A program made the translations under genes and the position numbers. Positions 16,429-56,992 of a DNA stretch of 64,000 nt are shown here, in pieces. Below the pieces are notes generated by a model. The model ran no database searches, was not told the DNA's origin, and worked only from the letters and a program-made list of their open reading frames with translations. Source of the stretch: Corallococcus macrosporus DSM 14697 (GTDB lineage: Bacteria > Myxococcota > Myxococcia > Myxococcales > Myxococcaceae); the NCBI RefSeq assembly GCF_002305895.1, contig NZ_CP022203.1, forward strand, positions 7,598,001-7,662,000, in the 5' to 3' direction. Within the stretch, counting starts at the first letter, position 1. The number at the start of each line of letters is the position of its first letter.

Positions 16429-16962
16429 ATGCCGTCCGTCAAGCAACTGCGCCCGTTCGCCCTGGCAACCCTGGAGGCCTTCATTGAAGCCTCGGGCCGT
16501 GTCGTGCTGGTCCAGCAGCCTCCCGAGCCCGTGTTCCAACAAGTCGCCCTGCGGCTCGGCGCGGCACGCACCGTGGGCATGGCGCACCGGACACGGCTCG
16601 TGGACCGGCTGTTCGTCATGCTGCGCGGGTTCGATGCCCTGGAGGTCCACTTCCTGAGACCGGAGGCGGAGAGCCAGGAGTTCTCCGTGGGCCGCGTTGA
16701 AGGCTGCTCCCTGGTGGTGCCGGACCCGTCCGTGTCCAAGCACCACGCCACGCTGCGGTGGCACGCCCAGGCCGGTGACTGCTCGGTGCGGGACGTGGGC
16801 TCCATGAATGGCACCTGGGTCAACGCCTCGGCGCTGGGGCCGGAACAGGAGCAGATGCTCAACGACGGCGATGCCCTGGCTTTTGGCGACGCCCAGTTCC
16901 TCTACCTGCGCACGGAAACGCTCCACGCCCATCTGCGCATGGCCAGTCCCGGCCGGGACTGA
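16429..16962 (+). CDS. FHA domain protein
   Basis: A protein of 177 residues. The C-terminal half (about residues 75-165) is a forkhead-associated domain that binds phosphothreonine peptides. Signature residues are present: SVGRVEGCSLVVPDPSVSKH (G-R and S-x-x-H), then DVGSMNGTWVN (the N-G pair) and GDALAFGDAQFLYL. The N-terminal half is helical with no recognised motif (LRPFALATLEAFIEASGRV). Such small FHA proteins are readers of Ser/Thr kinase signalling, abundant in myxobacteria. No kinase is adjacent. The non-coding palindromic repeat array begins 14 bases after its stop. Confidence 0.85.
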   Translation: MPSVKQLRPFALATLEAFIEASGRVVLVQQPPEPVFQQVALRLGAARTVGMAHRTRLVDRLFVMLRGFDALEVHFLRPEAESQEFSVGRVEGCSLVVPDPSVSKHHATLRWHAQAGDCSVRDVGSMNGTWVNASALGPEQEQMLNDGDALAFGDAQFLYLRTETLHAHLRMASPGRD

Positions 16963-16975
16963 GGCGCGCCGGAAC

Positions 16976-17211
16976 GGAACGTCCATTCCGCCAGGAGGGA
17001 GCCTGCCCCGTGAGCGCCAAGGCCACCCGGGCCGGAACGTCCATTCCGGGCGGAGGGGCGCGCCCCCAAGGCTCGGGTCTTTGGGACGGAACGTTCATTC
17101 CAGCCCTGGACGCCCAACCCCTTCGAAGTCGGAAGCCCGGAAATCGAGCGCGCATCCCACGAGGGAGTGGCGCTCCCGGGACACAGCCCCGCTGGAAGGA
17201 ACGTTCATTCC
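16976..17211. repeat. four inverted-orientation copies of the GGAACGTYCATTCC element
   Basis: Copies lie at 16976-16989 and 17034-17047 (GGAACGTCCATTCC) and at 17088-17101 and 17198-17211 (GGAACGTTCATTCC). Spacings are 58, 54 and 110 bp, irregular compared with the second half of the array. They face the opposite way to the copies from 17307 on, so the whole array has a head-to-head arrangement with its centre near 17260. Confidence 0.85.
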
Positions 17212-17306
17212 AAGGAGGGAGACCGCACCACCAGGTGGGAGCACCCTCGCGGGACGGCGGATCCATTTCGAGCAAGGAGGCAGAGCGCTCTCCTCCGGGC
17301 CCCCGC

Positions 17307-17686
17307 GGAATGAACGTTCCCTCCACCCGGAAGGAAGCCGGCCGCGGCCCCCACCGGCCATGCCGAGGAGGAAGACCGTGCCCCATGTCGGTCCCCGCGG
17401 AATGAACGTTCCCTCCACCCAGGAGGAAGCAAGCAGCGGGTCCCGCCGGTCACGCCAAGGTGGAGGGCCGCTCCCCATGGAGGCCCGGTGGAATGAACGT
17501 TCCCTCCACCCAGGTGGAAGCCGGCAGCGGCCCCCGCCGGTCAGGCCAAGGCGGAGGGTCTCTCCCCATGGAGGCCCGGTGGAATGAACGTTCCCTCCAC
17601 CCAGGAGGCCGGTCGGCAGCGGGTCCCGCCGGTTACGCCAAGGTGGAGGGCCGCTCCCCATGGAGACCCGGTGGAATGAACGTTCC
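17307..17686. repeat. tandem ~91-bp repeat, five units with core GGAATGAACGTTCC
   Basis: Cores lie at 17307, 17399, 17490, 17581 and 17673 (starts), with periods of 92, 91, 91 and 92 bp. Each core contains the perfect 8-bp palindrome GAACGTTC, and in the last three units it is flanked by GGTGGA on the left and TCCACC on the right, giving a 24-bp imperfect palindrome. The spacer also repeats (CAGCGGGTCCCGCCGG, CTCCCCATGGAGGCCCGG). A decayed sixth copy begins at 17729 (GGAATGAGACACC). Confidence 0.9.
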
Positions 17687-17921
17687 CTCCACCTAGAAGG
17701 CCGGTCGGCGGCGAGCTCCGGACTGGCGTGGAATGAGACACCTCCTTCCCGCGTAGAGGGGCCATCCCCGGAAAGCAGCCCGGCAGCGGGCCTCTCCTCC
17801 GCCTGATTCCCCACGCGCCCGCCAGATGATGCCCCTGCCCCTGTCCTCCAGCCACTTCCTGCGGCGCATGTCGCCCGCCCCGGCTATGACTGCTCCCTTT
17901 CACGCCAAGGGAGCACCGTAA

Positions 17922-19145
17922 ATGGGCAGGCTGCTGTTCCTCCTCCTCTTCAACGTGGGCGCGTGGGCGGTGCTCCGCTCGCTGTGGCCTGGCCTGCTCC
18001 GCAAGTGGCGCCTCGGTGTCTTCGCGCTGGGAACCTTTCTGTCCCTGGTCGCGTGGCTCTACTCGGCCATCGCCGGACGACACGCACAACTCCCCGTAGG
18101 AGACGCGGCCCTGCGCGTCTTCTCCGTGGGCTGGTCCGTCGCCATCATCATGGTGGTGCTCATCGGCGGGCCCCTCCTCCTGCTGCGCAGGTGGCTGGAA
18201 CATCCCGCTCGCCGGGAGCCCCCGCTGACCACGACTCCGACCCAATCCGCTCCGGTGAACCTGGCGCGCCGCAACCTGCTGACGAACGCGGGGCGCGCGG
18301 TGCCGCTGCTCGCGGCCGGAACCAGCTCGGTGGGGCTCGCCAATGGGTACTCACAGTTCTCGGTCCGCGAGGTCGAAATCAGGCTGCCCCGGCTGCCTCC
18401 GGCGCTGGACGGCTTCCGCATCGGCCAGATTACGGACGTCCACGTCGGCACCTTCATCGACACGCAGTACCTGCAAGCCGCCGTGCGGGCGATGAACGAC
18501 GCCAAGGTGGACCTCCAGGTGATGACGGGGGACCTCATCGACGACCTGGACCAGCTCGACGGCACCATGGCGGCGCTGTCGGAGTGCCAGGCGCGTCACG
18601 GCATGCTCGCCATCCTCGGCAACCATGAGCACTGGCGGGGCCTGGGAGCCATCCGCCGGGCCTATGCCGACGTGGAGGCGAACGGCGGGCCCGTGCGCCT
18701 GCTGGTGGACGCGTCCCACGCCTTCGAGCACGCCGGGCAGCGCGTGCGCGTGGTGGGCGTGGACTACCCCATGTCCGGCCGGAGCCACCGCGTGAAGGCG
18801 GAGCGCATGCACCAGTCCGCGGAGGCGGGATTCCGCGACGTCGCGCCCGAAGAGGTGGTGCTCTGCCTGACGCACCACCCGGACTTCTTCCCCCTCGCGG
18901 CCGAGCGCGGCGCCCGGCTGACGCTGGCCGGCCACACCCACGGCGGACAGGTGGCGTTCCTGGGCGTGCCGGCCTTCTGGTTCGCCTTCAAGTACATGCT
19001 CGGCCGCTACCGCCAGGGTGACCATCAGCTCTACGTGTCGGGCGGAACGGGGCACTGGCTGCCCTTCCGCATCGGCGTGCCCACCGAGGTGACGGTCCTC
19101 ACCCTTCGCGCGGAGGGAGCGCCGGCTGCTGGCCGTACGTCTTGA
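17922..19145 (+). CDS. membrane metallophosphoesterase (YkuE/YaeI-like)
   Basis: A protein of 407 residues. Three or four hydrophobic segments occupy residues 1-95 (RLLFLLLFNVGAWAVL, VFALGTFLSLVAWLYSAIAG, GWSVAIIMVVLIGGPLLLL). A short RRNLLTNAGRAVPLLAAG segment follows, and then a calcineurin-like phosphoesterase domain from residue 150. Metal ligands are in order: ITDVHVG, MTGDLIDD, ILGNHEHW, LTHHPDFF and LAGHTHGGQ. Relatives act on phosphodiesters such as UDP-diacylglucosamine or cell-envelope lipids; the substrate here is unknown. The active site probably faces the periplasm. The 3' end overlaps the convergent aldolase gene by 47 bases. Confidence 0.88.
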   Translation: MGRLLFLLLFNVGAWAVLRSLWPGLLRKWRLGVFALGTFLSLVAWLYSAIAGRHAQLPVGDAALRVFSVGWSVAIIMVVLIGGPLLLLRRWLEHPARREPPLTTTPTQSAPVNLARRNLLTNAGRAVPLLAAGTSSVGLANGYSQFSVREVEIRLPRLPPALDGFRIGQITDVHVGTFIDTQYLQAAVRAMNDAKVDLQVMTGDLIDDLDQLDGTMAALSECQARHGMLAILGNHEHWRGLGAIRRAYADVEANGGPVRLLVDASHAFEHAGQRVRVVGVDYPMSGRSHRVKAERMHQSAEAGFRDVAPEEVVLCLTHHPDFFPLAAERGARLTLAGHTHGGQVAFLGVPAFWFAFKYMLGRYRQGDHQLYVSGGTGHWLPFRIGVPTEVTVLTLRAEGAPAAGRTS

Positions 19146-50452: not shown

Positions 50453-53400
50453 TCAGCCCTCCCAGGTCGCGAGCAACGCGCGCACCCGTGCATACCTCTG
50501 CATCAACGTGGCGCGGTGAGCACTGAGCAGCACCATGGTGCCGATGACGAGCAGGCCCAGCATGAACAACGACGCGGCGGCGACGCGGTGGTCCCGCATG
50601 CCGAAGCGCACCAGGTTGGCCGCGATGCACGTCACCAGGAAGCCGGTGCCCAGGTACACGTAGGAGCGGATGCGCAGGGCGATGCCGCAGACCACCCCCA
50701 CCACGCAGAGCAGCACGCAGAGCAGCATGGAGCGCCCATCGCTGAACATGAGCGGCCTCCACGCGGCGGCGATGTAGATGCCCGTGACGGCCAGCGCGCG
50801 CAACTGCGTGTAGATTTCCGGAGCGAGCGCCTCGCGGAACACGCGCAGCAGCGCGAGCAGGGACAGCCCCGCGGGGATGATGAAGTACACCAACTCCCCC
50901 TCTCCGCTCGCCCGCCAGCCCATGAACAGGGCGGCGTTGAAGGCGACCGCGGAGACCAGCGACGGCAGGCCCCGGCGGTCAGGCTGCGCGCCAAGCGCGG
51001 CGAAGTGCGCGGCGTGCCCCACCAGCAGCGCCGCCATGTGGGCCGGCTCGCCCCAGGGCGCGGAGAGCAGGCCCGTCAGTGGGAAGAGGTAGGCCCCCGA
51101 CAACATCGGCCCGCGGAGACTCGCCAGGCCCGCGCCTTCTCGCTGCGCGAAGAAGTAGAGGCCAGTGAACAGCGCGCCACCCACCAGGGCCGCCAGGCTG
51201 TCGCCAGGCCCCGGGAGCGCGCCCATGCCCAGCACCCGCACGCCGAGGTAGCCCAGCGCGAGCACCCCCTGCGCCAGGTAGCCGGACGCGGACTCCCGGG
51301 ACTTCACGGCACGACGCACCAGCGCGAAGAACAGCACGCCCAGCGCCACGCTCGACACCACGCCCTCGCGGAGCGCGTCGGCGGAGGCCCCGATGAGCGG
51401 CAAGCCCAGCAGGACCTCGGTGAGCGCGACGAGCGCGAAGCTGTGCCCCACCTCCCGGCGCAGCGACTCGCGGGCCACGAAGAGCACCAGCGTGGCGAGC
51501 AGCGCGCTGGCCGCGCCGAAGTACGGCAGGATGAACTCCGCGCCCCGGCCACTGGAGTACACGGCCCCCAGGTGCATCAGCCAGCCGTGCACGGCGGCCA
51601 GCGTGGCCAGCCACCCCACCAGCTCGCGGGAGCGGCGCCGCAGCACCACGCCCCAGGCGGCGCCCAGCGCGAAGAGGATGCTCAGCGGCGTCCCCACATG
51701 CTCCAGGTCCCGGATGCCCGCGAGCGCCAGCAGCGCCAACACCCAACCCCCATGGTGCAGCGCCGCGCCCACGTGGAGGCCCCGGGCATCCAGCCACAGG
51801 CCGCCGCAACACAGCACGAGCCCCACCCCACTCACGACGGCGGGCGCCCACGGCAGCGGAACCGCGGCGCCCAGCGACACGCCCAGCAGCGCGGTGGCGA
51901 CCCAGGCGAATCCGCGCTCGCGCGTCACCATGAGCACGCAAGCCGTCAGTCCCATCCCCAGCGCCATCGGAAGCGGCAAGGTGCCCGGTCCCGACAGGAG
52001 CAGCCACTCCAACTGCAGCAGCCCCAGGGCGCTGGCGCTCCCCAGCCACAGCGGCTCGCTCCACGGTCCGTCCAGCTCAGGCAACACCTTCGCGAGGCGC
52101 TGACGGAGCGCGGTTTGAATCCGCTCGGGCTGGCACACCGCCGCCAGCGACGCGGCGCCGAGCAGCACCAGGACGCACCACAGCCGGGCCTCCTCGTTCG
52201 GAGGCAGGATGCCTGCGACGCCGTCCAGGCCCAGCGCCGCGAGCGCCAGCGCCCACACGGCGGGGATGAGCCACATCCGCTGCGACAGCAGGAACGCGGC
52301 CAGCACCAGCACGCCGCTCATCATCGCCAGACGGACCGGCGTGAAGTCCTCCACCAGGGCGAACGCGGAGAGGAGCATCGCCAGGCTGACAGCCGTGGGC
52401 CGCAGCGCCGGGTCCTCCGGGCTCAGGAAGAAGCGCCACACCTGGGCCGGCCGCCAGTGCTCCACGATGGCCAGGGCGAGCACCAGCAGGATGACGACAG
52501 GGCGAACGGCCGGGAAGGCCATGAGCAGCAGCGCGGATGCACCCACTCGCAAGAAGGGACGAGGCCCGGGCATCAGCGCCAGCGAGCCCGCCACGCAGCA
52601 CGGTCCCAGCGGCGAGGACTCCGCGCGCAGCACGAAGGCCACCACCGGAAATGCCACCAGGGCCAGCCAGCCCTGCATCCACGTGGACACGGCGCGCCGA
52701 GGCGCCTCCTCTCGCGAGCCCAGCAGCCCTTCCGCCACCCCGGGAAGATGCGCCACCGCACGGGCGAGCCCCAGCGCCAGCAACGGCAGGGCCACCGCCC
52801 ACCCCGGCGGCGCATCGAACCCGACCAGCCCGAACGGCACCGCTCCCCCCATCAGCCGCAGGCCACCCAGCGCGAGGGCGCCGAAGGTATAGGGAATCGC
52901 CAGGGGCGCGAAGAAGGGCCGGTGGGTGGCCCGCGTCCACAGCAGCGGCAGCGCGACGGTGCCCACGACCACTGGCGGCAGCGCCCGGTGCTTCCATTCC
53001 AGGATGGCCAGCATCAGCACCGCCATGGACGCCAGCGTCGACACCCACGCGAAGCGGCGCTCGACCGCGCACACCCGCCGCACCGCGGGAGCGGCCTCGA
53101 GCACCGCCAGGATGGCGAGCACCACGGCAAGTCCCAGGAGCGCCTCGGGGCCCACGCGCAGGAAGGCCATGGCGGCATGGACCGCGGCCACCGCGACGCT
53201 CACCCACGAGGGCAACGCGCGCACGGTGAGCAGCGCCGCGAGCGCCGCGCCCAGCATCAAGAAGGTGTGTCCTCCCGAGTCGTACGCCGCCAGGGTGTAC
53301 AGCGGGAACACCAGCGCCACGGCGCCCGCGACGCCGGTGTTGGCACTGCGGCCCCACCGCGCGGCGGCGAGCGACGCCCCCAGGGCCCAACAGACGAACA

Positions 53401-56400
53401 TCGTCATGGACAGGCCGGGCGTCATCCACCCACCCCAGGGCGCGAAGAAGCCCGGGTCGTCCCGCACCAGCACGAGCGCGGCCAGGACGATGCCGAGCGG
53501 GCGGACTCGCGGCAGGGCCCTGGATGCCACCGCGACCGCGCTGGCCGCGATGAGAATCACCCCGGCCAGGCCGGGCACCTCGCCGAGCGCGCCTCGAAGC
53601 ACCGCGAGCACCGCGTAGCCAACGGCGGGACCTCCCAGCCACCGCCACAGCCCGCCTCGCGTGCCCAGGGACGCGAGCGCGAACGCGGCCGCGGACATCG
53701 CCAGCGCGACCGAGGCGGTGGAGAACTCTCCGACCAGCCGAGGGAGGACCGACACGGCGAGCACGGAGGCCACCGCCATGAGCGACGCGCGCTGAAGCGC
53801 CCAGGCCACCCCCATCGCGGCGGCGCCACACAAGGCCACCCCCACCACGGACACGGCGCCGCCACGGCTGACCATGCCCAGGAGGAACCCCGTCACCGAC
53901 AGCACGCCCGCGACCACGCCCAGCAGCCAGCGTGTGCGCTCGGTGGACAACGTCCCCACCAGGGCGAGCCCCAGCGCCACCGCCCCCGCGACGATGGACG
54001 CCGCGGGCGCCCCCAGCAGCGACCAGGCGTGGAACGGCAGGAGCACCATCAGGGCCGCGCCCATGACCGACAGGAAGAAGCGCTCCACCAGCAGGCCCAC
54101 CACCAGGCAGAGCAGGGCCAGCGCCAGCACGCTCCAGAAGGCGGGCCGCGCGTCCGGCCCCGTCATCCCCACGAAGACGAAGAGGGGGCTCGCCACCGCG
54201 GTGGCACGGAACAGCACCTCCGCCAGGGCTCGCTCGCGGGCCCCGCCCGTGCGCTCTCCACGCCACAGACACGCGACGCCCAGCACCGCGCCCGCGAAGA
54301 GGTACGGGAGCGCGGAGAGCGCGCCGAACTGCACTGGAAGCGCGTCCGAGACCTCGTACCCCAGCCGCGCCTTGAGCGCGTCGATGACGCGCTTCACCGG
54401 TCCCGGAATGAGCTGGGAGAAGGACGCGTAGGCGAAGTACGTGCTCGCGTACGCCGCGTAGACCCACGGCATGCGCGCGATACCGCCCCGCGCCAACGAC
54501 AGCAGCGCTCCGGAGGCGACCGCGGCGGTGAGGAAGAACGCGGGCGGCGGAGCCAGGGCGGCCGCCGCCAGACAGAGCGCCTGGAGTGACACCACGACAA
54601 TGGAGAGCGCGTCCGCGCCACGCTCGGGCGGCAGGACGCGGAAGCGCAGCGACGTGGTGAGCAGGAAAGCGGCGAAGGGCGCGTACGTGCCCACGGAGAG
54701 GTCCACACCGGCCCCTTCCAGGGCGACATGGAGGCGCACGAAGTCGAGCGCCAGCAGGTAGAGCGGAGCCCCCAGCGCGAAGACGAGCGTGGTTCCCTGT
54801 CGCGCCCGCGGTGCGGGCCGCGAGGACAGGAGGAAGAAGAGCGCACACGGCAGGACGTGGAGCCCCAGCGCGAAGACACCCGCATTCGCTGCGAGCGGCG
54901 CCAGCCCCATCACCAGGGTGCTGGCCACGAGCGAAGCCTGGACGATGGGGCGGGAGGTCGCGTCGAAGTGCTCCGTGGGCTTCCGGGCGAGGAAGGCCGA
55001 CACACCTGCCCAGGCCAGCAGCAAGGGAATGAGCAGCAAGGTGCCGACGCCGCCCAGTTGAAGCGCCTCGCCCAGGCCCATGGGCCCCAGGGCGATGCCC
55101 GCCAGCGGAGCCACCGCCGAGCCGATGAGCCCCAGGATGTTCCCGGCGCTGCGCAGGGACTCACGCCGCGCGAGATACGCGCCCCAGATGGAGAAGCCCG
55201 CCGAGTAGCCCGCCGTCAGGCCGAACACGGTGAGTGAGCGGACGTTGGAGGACATCCCCGCCCAGCTCTCGAACACGAAGTAGAGGGTGCCCGACAGGAT
55301 GAGGAAGGCCCCTACGAACCACATGATGCTCTCGTAGAGGAAGGGCCTCCACACGCGGTTCCAGGTGGAGGTCGCCTCGGCGAAGCGGGCGAACGCGCCT
55401 TCCGAGGGCGGCGGCTCCGCGTACGGCTCCGCGGGGTTCGGGGGCAACTCCGCATGAGCCTCGGCGCGCCAGTCCCCCTTGGCTCCCGGGCTGACCGCGT
55501 GGAACGGAACGTCCATTCCGCCAGCAGGCATGCCGGTGCCAGCAGCCCCCTCGGGCGTCGGGCTGGCCGCGTGGAACGGAACGTCCATTCCGTCGGCAGG
55601 CACGCCCGAGCCGCTCCCCCCAGACGTCGGGCTGGTCGCCTGGAACGGAACGTCCATTCCGCCAGCGGGTGCACCGGAGCCGACACCCTCGGACGCCGGG
55701 GCAGCCGCGTGGAACGGAACGTCCATTCCACCAGCGGGTGCACCGGAACCGACACCCTCGGACGCCGGGGCAGCCGCGTGGAACGGAACGTCCATTCCAC
55801 CAGCGGGTGCGCCGGAGCCGACACCCTCGGACGCCGGGGCAGCCGCGTGGAACGGAACGTCCATTCCACCAGCGGGTGCACCGGAACCGACACCCTCGGA
55901 CGCCGGGGCAGCCGCGTGGAACGGAACGTCCATTCCACCAGCGGGTGCACCGGAGCCGACACCCTCGGACGCCGGGGCAGCCGCGTGGAACGGAACGTCC
56001 ATTCCACCAGCGGGTGCGCCGGAGCCGGCCGTCCTCCTGAACCTCGGGCTGGCCGCGCGGAATGGAACGTCCGTTCCACCGCAGGACACGCCGGAACTGG
56101 TGCCCCCCTCGGACGCTCGGGAGGCCGAATGGAACGGAACGCCCGTTCCACCAACGGGCATGTCGGTGCTGGTCTCCCCCTCGGACGCTCGGGAGGCCGA
56201 ATGGAACGGAACGTCCATTCCACCGCCGGGCATGCCGGAACTGGTGCCCCCCTCGGGCGCTCGGGAGGCCGAATGGAACGGAACGCCCGTTCCACCAACG
56301 GGCATGTCGGTGCTGGTCTCCCCCTCGGACGCACGGGAGGCCGAATGGAACGGAACGTCCATTCCGCCAGCGGGTGCGCCGGAGCTGGTGCCCCCCTCGG

Positions 56401-56992
56401 ACGCACGGGCGGCCGCGTGGAATGGAACGTCCATTCCGCCAGCGGGCGCGCCGAAACCCGCGGTCTCCTGGCTTGGCGCTGCGATGTCAGACTGCTCCTG
56501 CGTCGCTTGTGCTTGTGCCACCACCTCCAGGGGCTTCGGCGCCCTCCGCGCGACCAGCGACAGGTCCTCCGTCGCCCCATCCGGTTGAACAACAATTACC
56601 TCACGCACCGACACACGGGGCGCGACGTCCTCCTTCCGCTCCGTGTCGAACACCCGTGAAGGCACCGCCGCTGCTTCGGCCCGAGCCGACGCGCCAGCGC
56701 GCTCGTCCCCCATCCGCGGCGTCACCACCGCGTGCACCGGCCCACCGGCTGGCAACTCCGTGAGGACCGCCAGCAGGATGCGCGTCTGCCGTTCGTACCG
56801 CTCCGAGATGAAGCGCCGGACGTTGGGAGGAACCTCGGAAGGCTCCCACCGTGTCAGCTCATCGAGCAGGAATTGAACATGCGTGAGTTCCGCTTCGATG
56901 GCCTCGCGCGGACGCTCCGTCATCCGTGCGCCGCACAGCGCACACCAGAAGTCCTTGCCACGCCGCTCTTCACGGCAGTCCGGGCAGTACAT
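50453..56992 (-). CDS. giant polytopic membrane protein with zinc ribbon and 23/24-residue repeats
   Basis: A protein of 2179 residues from ATG 56992, chosen because it starts with a zinc ribbon (MYCPDCREERR, then WCALCGARM). The open frame upstream overlaps a divergent gene. Residues 25-170 are soluble (RREAIEAELTHVQFLLDELT-like helix). Residues about 174-497 are 14 repeats of 23 or 24 residues with the motif GGMDVPFH (variants GGTGVPFH, GGTDVPFR). From about 545 to the end there are several dozen hydrophobic helices (for example FVGAFLILSGTLYFVFESW and GLTAGYSAGFSIWGAYLA), a layout like the DUF2339/SCO7613-type giant membrane proteins. Function unknown; the transmembrane part suggests an envelope role. 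Confidence 0.85.
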   Translation of the reverse strand: MYCPDCREERRGKDFWCALCGARMTERPREAIEAELTHVQFLLDELTRWEPSEVPPNVRRFISERYERQTRILLAVLTELPAGGPVHAVVTPRMGDERAGASARAEAAAVPSRVFDTERKEDVAPRVSVREVIVVQPDGATEDLSLVARRAPKPLEVVAQAQATQEQSDIAAPSQETAGFGAPAGGMDVPFHAAARASEGGTSSGAPAGGMDVPFHSASRASEGETSTDMPVGGTGVPFHSASRAPEGGTSSGMPGGGMDVPFHSASRASEGETSTDMPVGGTGVPFHSASRASEGGTSSGVSCGGTDVPFRAASPRFRRTAGSGAPAGGMDVPFHAAAPASEGVGSGAPAGGMDVPFHAAAPASEGVGSGAPAGGMDVPFHAAAPASEGVGSGAPAGGMDVPFHAAAPASEGVGSGAPAGGMDVPFHAAAPASEGVGSGAPAGGMDVPFQATSPTSGGSGSGVPADGMDVPFHAASPTPEGAAGTGMPAGGMDVPFHAVSPGAKGDWRAEAHAELPPNPAEPYAEPPPSEGAFARFAEATSTWNRVWRPFLYESIMWFVGAFLILSGTLYFVFESWAGMSSNVRSLTVFGLTAGYSAGFSIWGAYLARRESLRSAGNILGLIGSAVAPLAGIALGPMGLGEALQLGGVGTLLLIPLLLAWAGVSAFLARKPTEHFDATSRPIVQASLVASTLVMGLAPLAANAGVFALGLHVLPCALFFLLSSRPAPRARQGTTLVFALGAPLYLLALDFVRLHVALEGAGVDLSVGTYAPFAAFLLTTSLRFRVLPPERGADALSIVVVSLQALCLAAAALAPPPAFFLTAAVASGALLSLARGGIARMPWVYAAYASTYFAYASFSQLIPGPVKRVIDALKARLGYEVSDALPVQFGALSALPYLFAGAVLGVACLWRGERTGGARERALAEVLFRATAVASPLFVFVGMTGPDARPAFWSVLALALLCLVVGLLVERFFLSVMGAALMVLLPFHAWSLLGAPAASIVAGAVALGLALVGTLSTERTRWLLGVVAGVLSVTGFLLGMVSRGGAVSVVGVALCGAAAMGVAWALQRASLMAVASVLAVSVLPRLVGEFSTASVALAMSAAAFALASLGTRGGLWRWLGGPAVGYAVLAVLRGALGEVPGLAGVILIAASAVAVASRALPRVRPLGIVLAALVLVRDDPGFFAPWGGWMTPGLSMTMFVCWALGASLAAARWGRSANTGVAGAVALVFPLYTLAAYDSGGHTFLMLGAALAALLTVRALPSWVSVAVAAVHAAMAFLRVGPEALLGLAVVLAILAVLEAAPAVRRVCAVERRFAWVSTLASMAVLMLAILEWKHRALPPVVVGTVALPLLWTRATHRPFFAPLAIPYTFGALALGGLRLMGGAVPFGLVGFDAPPGWAVALPLLALGLARAVAHLPGVAEGLLGSREEAPRRAVSTWMQGWLALVAFPVVAFVLRAESSPLGPCCVAGSLALMPGPRPFLRVGASALLLMAFPAVRPVVILLVLALAIVEHWRPAQVWRFFLSPEDPALRPTAVSLAMLLSAFALVEDFTPVRLAMMSGVLVLAAFLLSQRMWLIPAVWALALAALGLDGVAGILPPNEEARLWCVLVLLGAASLAAVCQPERIQTALRQRLAKVLPELDGPWSEPLWLGSASALGLLQLEWLLLSGPGTLPLPMALGMGLTACVLMVTRERGFAWVATALLGVSLGAAVPLPWAPAVVSGVGLVLCCGGLWLDARGLHVGAALHHGGWVLALLALAGIRDLEHVGTPLSILFALGAAWGVVLRRRSRELVGWLATLAAVHGWLMHLGAVYSSGRGAEFILPYFGAASALLATLVLFVARESLRREVGHSFALVALTEVLLGLPLIGASADALREGVVSSVALGVLFFALVRRAVKSRESASGYLAQGVLALGYLGVRVLGMGALPGPGDSLAALVGGALFTGLYFFAQREGAGLASLRGPMLSGAYLFPLTGLLSAPWGEPAHMAALLVGHAAHFAALGAQPDRRGLPSLVSAVAFNAALFMGWRASGEGELVYFIIPAGLSLLALLRVFREALAPEIYTQLRALAVTGIYIAAAWRPLMFSDGRSMLLCVLLCVVGVVCGIALRIRSYVYLGTGFLVTCIAANLVRFGMRDHRVAAASLFMLGLLVIGTMVLLSAHRATLMQRYARVRALLATWEG
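55506..56437 (-). repeat. in-frame tandem repeats of 69/72 bp with core GGAATGGACGTTCC
   Basis: Fourteen copies. Plus-strand cores start at 55506, 55578, 55647, 55716, 55785, 55854, 55923, 55992, 56064, 56136, 56208, 56280, 56352 and 56424. Spacings are 69 or 72 bp throughout, always multiples of three. The five spacings between 55647 and 55992 are exactly 69 bp and nearly identical, so recent duplication is likely. Eleven cores are the exact palindrome-like GGAACGTCCATTCC; 56064 has CCGTTCC and 56136 and 56280 have GCCCGTTCC. They encode the GGMDVPFH-type peptide repeat of the giant membrane protein. Confidence 0.95.

Follow-up and report, generated by a model that had tools for sequence, protein, structure and literature searches.

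TetR-family autoregulatory operators are palindromes of 15-20 bp with a fixed position in TetR-family gene promoters. The short DNA word described here shares these features, with binding by the TetR protein presumed; unlike those operators, it also occurs in multi-copy arrays and within unrelated coding sequences. SlmA and RefZ are TetR-family proteins. The sites of SlmA, Noc, and RefZ are, like the word, several chromosomal copies of one palindrome, in their case bound by one DNA-binding protein, and RefZ has five nearly palindromic sites (PMC6657595). The word differs from all of these in forming tandem arrays, including in-frame arrays in genes, and in its strong copy-number differences between close species. 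Rickettsia palindromic elements (RPEs) are longer inserted segments. They resemble the word in that one palindromic DNA sequence is read in frame in unrelated proteins, but the word is only 18-19 bp and appears to be made in place and then duplicated locally, and the host gene was not lengthened in SufD or the histidine kinase. Gradual accumulation of a short word by mutation in tolerated places has been discussed for DNA uptake sequences (DUS/USS; PMC1939737), and the word might accumulate likewise. However, DUS/USS reach hundreds to thousands of copies, compared with 0-120 per genome of the genus here, and the word is palindromic, found in arrays, and linked to a TetR promoter. PARCELs (PMC2996958) are, as in our case, tandem repeats read in frame in membrane proteins and encoded by dyad-symmetric DNA; they are a 25-residue amphipathic protein motif, whereas here, by inspection, the DNA is constant and the frames differ.

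We analysed 64,000 nucleotides of Corallococcus macrosporus DSM 14697 (NZ_CP022203.1, positions 7,598,001 to 7,662,000; the window). A gene in the window encodes a 2179-aa membrane protein, which had no Pfam or NCBIfam match. It starts with an N-terminal CxxC...CxxC pair (by eye), followed by a hypervariable linker and then the membrane part. The word is present in the linker of this protein and in an intergenic array near 17 kb. The features are given below, with the strand where one was assigned.

16960..17937: intergenic array in the window, 9 word copies in both orientations and both forms; 88% copy elsewhere
50453..56992, minus strand: membrane-protein gene, 2179 aa (translation)
55487..56453, minus strand: in-frame array in the linker, 14 units of 69/72 bp (TRF and spacing)
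55501..55519: operator-like word, unit 14 of the protein, GGAACGGAACGTCCATTCC
55573..55591: operator-like word, unit 13
55642..55660: operator-like word, unit 12
55711..55729: operator-like word, unit 11
55780..55798: operator-like word, unit 10
55849..55867: operator-like word, unit 9
55918..55936: operator-like word, unit 8
55987..56005: operator-like word, unit 7
56059..56077: operator-like word, unit 6, variant GGAATGGAACGTCCGTTCC
56131..56149: operator-like word, unit 5, variant with GGAACGCCCGTTCC
56203..56221: operator-like word, unit 4
56275..56293: operator-like word, unit 3, variant with GGAACGCCCGTTCC
56347..56365: operator-like word, unit 2
56419..56437: operator-like word, unit 1, perfect dyad GGAATGGAACGTCCATTCC (8-3-8)

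TRF gave a period of 69 and 13.7 copies for 55487-56453. The 14 words are on the template strand of the gene, at 55506-56437. Their spacings are 72, 69, 69, 69, 69, 69, 69, 72, 72, 72, 72, 72, and 72 bp, always 69 or 72 as the first-pass annotation had described, and all are multiples of three. That annotation also assigned one 14-bp core to all 14 repeats and equated it with the element of the 17-kb array, and both statements hold for a part of the copies. The exact 14-mer is found in 11 of the 14 units, with variants in the other three (GGAACGTCCGTTCC at 56064; GGAACGCCCGTTCC at 56136 and 56280), and in two of the nine cores of the 17-kb array, where the other seven are GGAACGTTCATTCC. Conservation extends past the 14 bp, and the word in the membrane-protein gene is the 19-bp GGAAYGGAACGTCCATTCC. 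Window-wide, there were 23 matches with at most two mismatches against 0.31 expected, and none of 100 shuffles reached 23. By inspection, the array units are 23-24 aa long and rich in Gly, Ala, Ser, and Pro. An Rfam search of the window returned no RNA family.

Among the 14 units, 16 of the 19 positions of GGAAYGGAACGTCCATTCC are invariant, although units within one array are related by duplication, so that identical units do not count as separate pieces of evidence. The third positions of GGA, GAC, and GTT have a diversity of 0, compared with 0.31 at third positions of the flanks, and GTT is rare in the rest of the gene, at 7 of 189 Val codons. The changes in the core, ATG>ACG (M>T) and GAC>GGC (D>G), alter the amino acid and fall at degenerate positions of the genome-wide word. 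Since synonymous sites are constant and amino-acid changes occur only where the word is degenerate, the word in the membrane-protein gene is conserved as DNA, not as peptide. The synonymous-site comparison proposed in the first-pass annotation thus points to the DNA. Between the 17-kb array and its second copy, 2 of 126 core positions differ, compared with 103 of 838 other positions (p=4.6e-5).

In a subfamily of TetR-family genes, a perfect 18-bp palindrome, GGAAGGAACGTTCCTTCC, precedes the start codon by about 50-60 bp. The palindrome or a close form was present in 16 of the 18 promoters of this subfamily, and it was 33-34 bp from a conserved block, TGTCAGnCCC, in all 13 promoters that could be measured; the background expectation for the operator centre is 0.0009 per 130 bp. 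When 20 loci with perfect sites were sampled, 12 were just upstream of a TetR-subfamily gene. Most TetR loci were reached through their palindrome content, but L134, L341, L350, and L364 were not, and all four carry the site (L350 the perfect form, the others a close variant). The TetR genes at L057 and L204 have the same promoter block without the palindrome. The adjoining proteins matched Pfam TetR_N (E 9e-13 to 4e-8), a structure model of the subfamily has a nine-helix TetR fold and matches TetR structures, and the recognition helix S-[VI]-G-[ST]-x-Y-R-x-Y-G-[SD]-K is common to all members. Because the palindrome is at a fixed promoter place, including the four of four loci not chosen for it, the word is most likely the putative operator of this TetR subfamily, and we infer that the TetR protein binds it, also inside the membrane-protein gene. 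The link to the TetR promoter is new relative to the first-pass annotation, which was made from the sequence only. A literature search on TetR operators and palindromes in Myxococcus xanthus gave, among the titles listed, none on this subfamily.

C. macrosporus has two near-identical copies of the TetR gene. The copy near 87.8 kb (L387) has a perfect operator-like site, and the copy near 6.37 Mb (L057) has a degenerate one plus the 18-bp word 170 bp upstream. Most word copies are not at TetR promoters. Two further observations were made at the TetR loci. A conserved promoter block near CATGTCAGnCCC...GTAGACAGG is found upstream of the operator-like site at L387, L389-L393, L396-L398, L402, L350, and L364. 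Moreover, the TetR reading frame is open well past 200 aa in nearly every copy (L391, L057, L350, and others; L134 is cut by the locus end); no second domain was found in this long frame, which might overlap or be fused with the next gene.

The word has two main forms, the 18-bp GGAAGGAACGTTC[AC]TTCC and the 19-bp GGAAYGGAACGTCCATTCC, and both are near-palindromic. At the same codons of a kinase-like gene, G000, G018, and G024 have the 19-bp form and G016 has the 18-bp form, and we tie the two forms together because they interchange there. In C. macrosporus, no TetR promoter was found with the exact 19-bp form, and similar 19-mers (two of GGAATGGAGCGTCCATTCC) were seen further upstream at L134 only. 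The 19-bp form would therefore be tied to the putative 18-bp operator only indirectly, via the interchange at one orthologous codon site and via mixed arrays. Matches to the kinase-like family holding the ancestral in-gene word (L123-L152) number about 24-39 per genome where the Pyxidicoccus-clade genome is word-rich, compared with 4-14 in other genomes; at L134 a TetR gene adjoins the kinase gene.

There are 61 copies of GGAACGNNCATTCC in the C. macrosporus genome and 120 in P. caerfyrddinensis (G022), with about 0 in the control; other Myxococcus/Pyxidicoccus genomes have 0-120 each, and other genera are near background. The perfect palindrome GGAAGGAANNTTCCTTCC occurs 40, 38, and 29 times in G010, G021, and G022 (control 0). 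It was found in 12 genomes of the genus with 1-40 copies each, and outside the genus in only one genome, at three sites. A scan of named genomes with GGAAGGAACGTTCATTCC gave 66 stretches, nearly all from Myxococcus/Pyxidicoccus with a few scattered single matches elsewhere, where our own estimate for chance matches of an 18-mer in 257 Gb is about 7. In another Myxococcaceae genus (g20; L103-L109), most members have one GGAACGTCCATTCC per genome, inside an intergenic inverted repeat CACGGCGGGC...GCCCGCCGTG. Literature searches found no paper containing any of the five 14-mers searched, and none on myxobacterial minisatellites or REPs.

The first-pass annotation had proposed searching other proteins for the repeat peptide and its frame variants, and the word was found in unrelated proteins in several frames. 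It is read as EGTFIP in SufD, a lipoprotein-like propeller, and an nSTAND protein, as GMNVPS in several linkers and a histidine kinase, and as WNERS/WNGRS in a kinase-like protein. With sites assigned as intergenic or coding by a home-made simple codon score, all 31 in-gene spacings are multiples of three, compared with 52 of 110 intergenic spacings (Fisher 8e-9); counted by array, this is 9 of 9 in genes and 11 of 35 in intergenic DNA (p=2e-4).

We consider it probable that a TetR-subfamily operator-like word has been dispersed and locally amplified, and that it is held as DNA in the linker, where it reached 14 units. The canonical place of this 18-19 bp near-palindromic word would be the TetR-subfamily promoter, and it would have spread to tens of other sites in Myxococcus/Pyxidicoccus. 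At comparable coding sites the word would be made by substitution in place and not by insertion, and once it is present, the local DNA including the word would often be tandemly duplicated. In C. macrosporus, a copy in a tolerant hypervariable linker would have been amplified to 14 units; selection against frameshifts would have left only multiples of three, with the word held as DNA and GG-MDVPF-H as a by-product. Selection might retain the copies as binding sites, and for copies elsewhere the two readings we find most natural are repressor titration and a DNA-bound platform.

The coding sites that can be compared are in SufD and the histidine kinase. Species without the word have GAGGGCGCCTTCGCGCCC-like DNA at the SufD codons and species with the word have GAAGGAACGTTCATTCCA. 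The peptide changes from EGAFAP to EGTFIP with no length change across the word, and change inside the word is modestly elevated (5-6 of 18 against 15-21 of 102). In G022 and G012 a local 48-60 bp of SufD was duplicated in frame, and these tandem units were gained after the word. In the histidine kinase, six Pyxidicoccus-clade genomes share one and the same 18-bp word at a place where the peptides of relatives are LTLDVPA-like. The change to LGMNVPS involves 8 of 18 bases relative to G007, compared with 5-7 of 36 on the left flank, and the segment is 37 residues long in five of the six word genomes, as in most relatives. These comparisons indicate that both words arose in place, by substitution and without insertion. 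The making of the word anew at other loci might reflect selection for sites or a drive acting on similar sequence. A possible but doubtful reading is that the operator is itself a self-propagating short sequence, which overwrites similar host sequence in place, even in conserved enzyme genes, and seeds tandem duplications with no transposase. Overwriting by a reverse transcriptase or retron was rejected as a candidate, as RVT_1 is present in all genomes at 2-8 copies, and its number does not evidently follow the word count.

The array could also be a neutral minisatellite, produced by slippage in a repeat-tolerant linker, with the word hitchhiking and no protein bound. An orthologue of the membrane-protein gene is present in 27 of 27 genus genomes, and the linkers of all 26 other orthologues, searched for the word, are free of it. 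The comparison with repeat-free versions proposed in the first-pass annotation could thus be made, and the in-register expansion that it had suggested is seen in one species only. The distance from the N-terminus to the membrane part is 216-440 residues in the 26 orthologues and 540 in C. macrosporus. Contrary to that annotation's other suggestion, that the repeat had created the linker, the linker predates the word, and in some relatives it is rich in other, unrelated repeats without the word. Examples of such tandem repeats are at L093 (G017), L087 (G002), and L089 (G094), one being GAAGAGDTAHGRFEQ. The array arose in an already hypervariable linker. The relatives' unrelated repeats are consistent with neutral slippage, and so is a 1.594-Mb sample of P. 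caerfyrddinensis chosen without regard to the word, in which 5 of 52 TRF arrays contain the word or a variant; the 47 arrays without it count against the word as a general cause of tandem duplication. In the same sample GGAAGGAANNTTCNTTCC has 20 copies at 10 loci (0 in one Markov-simulated sequence of that length), and four of the 10 loci are arrays, though only a percent or two of the DNA lies in TRF arrays. However, hitchhiking leaves unexplained why synonymous sites of the word are unchanged while the flanks diverge, and why the same word recurs in unrelated arrays by the dozen and at orthologous sites in different species, and thus we regard the neutral explanation as unlikely.

Intergenic DNA is where a mobile palindromic element, similar to Rickettsia RPEs, REPs, or MITEs, finds support; such an element would insert into genes and intergenic DNA and then multiply. 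Dozens of intergenic word arrays occur in Myxococcus/Pyxidicoccus, with periods of about 40-130 bp that differ by array and with little shared but the word. The spacers are array-specific and repeated within each array; a CRISPR array was rejected since its spacers would be unique. The arrays are lineage-specific: orthologous loci in G010, G002, and G095 have arrays differing in copy number or in the variants of the word, or else nearly empty gaps only a few bases long. The 17-kb array is absent from P. caerfyrddinensis at the same gene pair, and that genome has an array one gene further on, where C. macrosporus has about 11 bp between the aligned parts. At the end of L069 (G012:C146) the contig runs into Nextera-adaptor-like CTGTCTCTTATAC..., and array ends at contig ends are unreliable there. 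The whole block of the 17-kb array, about 980 bp, has an 88% identical copy elsewhere in the genome, in L055 (1479-2445; G000:C1:7234500-7239000), with sharp ends and unrelated neighbours. Transposase genes are near some arrays, and L015 and L022 (1403-2984) have identical copies of an IS, with a transposase that is IS1182-like by eye, followed immediately by GGAATGTTCGTTCC, a form of the word. As the word source, this single IS was rejected, as its identical copies at L015 and L022 are too few for the remaining sites. Repeated segments of about 900-990 bp lie beside the word at L055-L057 in C. macrosporus, one of them IS630-type-transposase-like by eye.

Against entry of a mobile piece into genes, which the first-pass annotation had favoured, SufD and the histidine kinase gained the word without length change. 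Furthermore, the palindrome does not extend past 18-19 bp: the flank dyad is not above mismatched pairs and was reached by 41 of 302 permutations, and a longer hairpin or MITE was rejected. A search for RAYT/IS200 proteins (PF01797) found none in the 27 genus genomes while the control was positive, and a RAYT/REP system was rejected as well. A mobile element is therefore rather improbable as the origin of the word copies. Quite improbable, too, is a SlmA- or RefZ-like role, in which the word would be the site of a TetR protein that organises the chromosome or times division, with the copies serving nucleoid positioning. A TetR family combined with dispersed palindromes would agree with it, as for the RefZ motifs (PMC6657595), but the 14-mer form is present in close relatives at only 0-11 copies, which is not what a conserved, essential map would show, and some genomes have several paralogous TetR genes. 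Finally, protein-level selection for the GGMDVPFH repeat, a peptide occurring 14 times in a soluble linker, is hardly credible, since amino acids vary where the DNA is free to vary while synonymous sites are fixed, the repeat is absent from 26 orthologues, and the word is read in other frames in other genes.

The probable spread of an operator-like word has several implications. Here the operator of a transcription factor appears to spread through a genome into coding sequence and to be held there at the DNA level, and dozens of sequenced species provide natural filled and unfilled word sites. This opens to testing the multiplication of binding sites, the titration of a repressor by operator arrays, and the possibility that the evolution of a protein repeat is driven by a DNA word. 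It is also a warning that constraint on the DNA can leave a conserved peptide repeat as a by-product. If the operator does propagate itself, a genome would fill with operator copies without any transposase.
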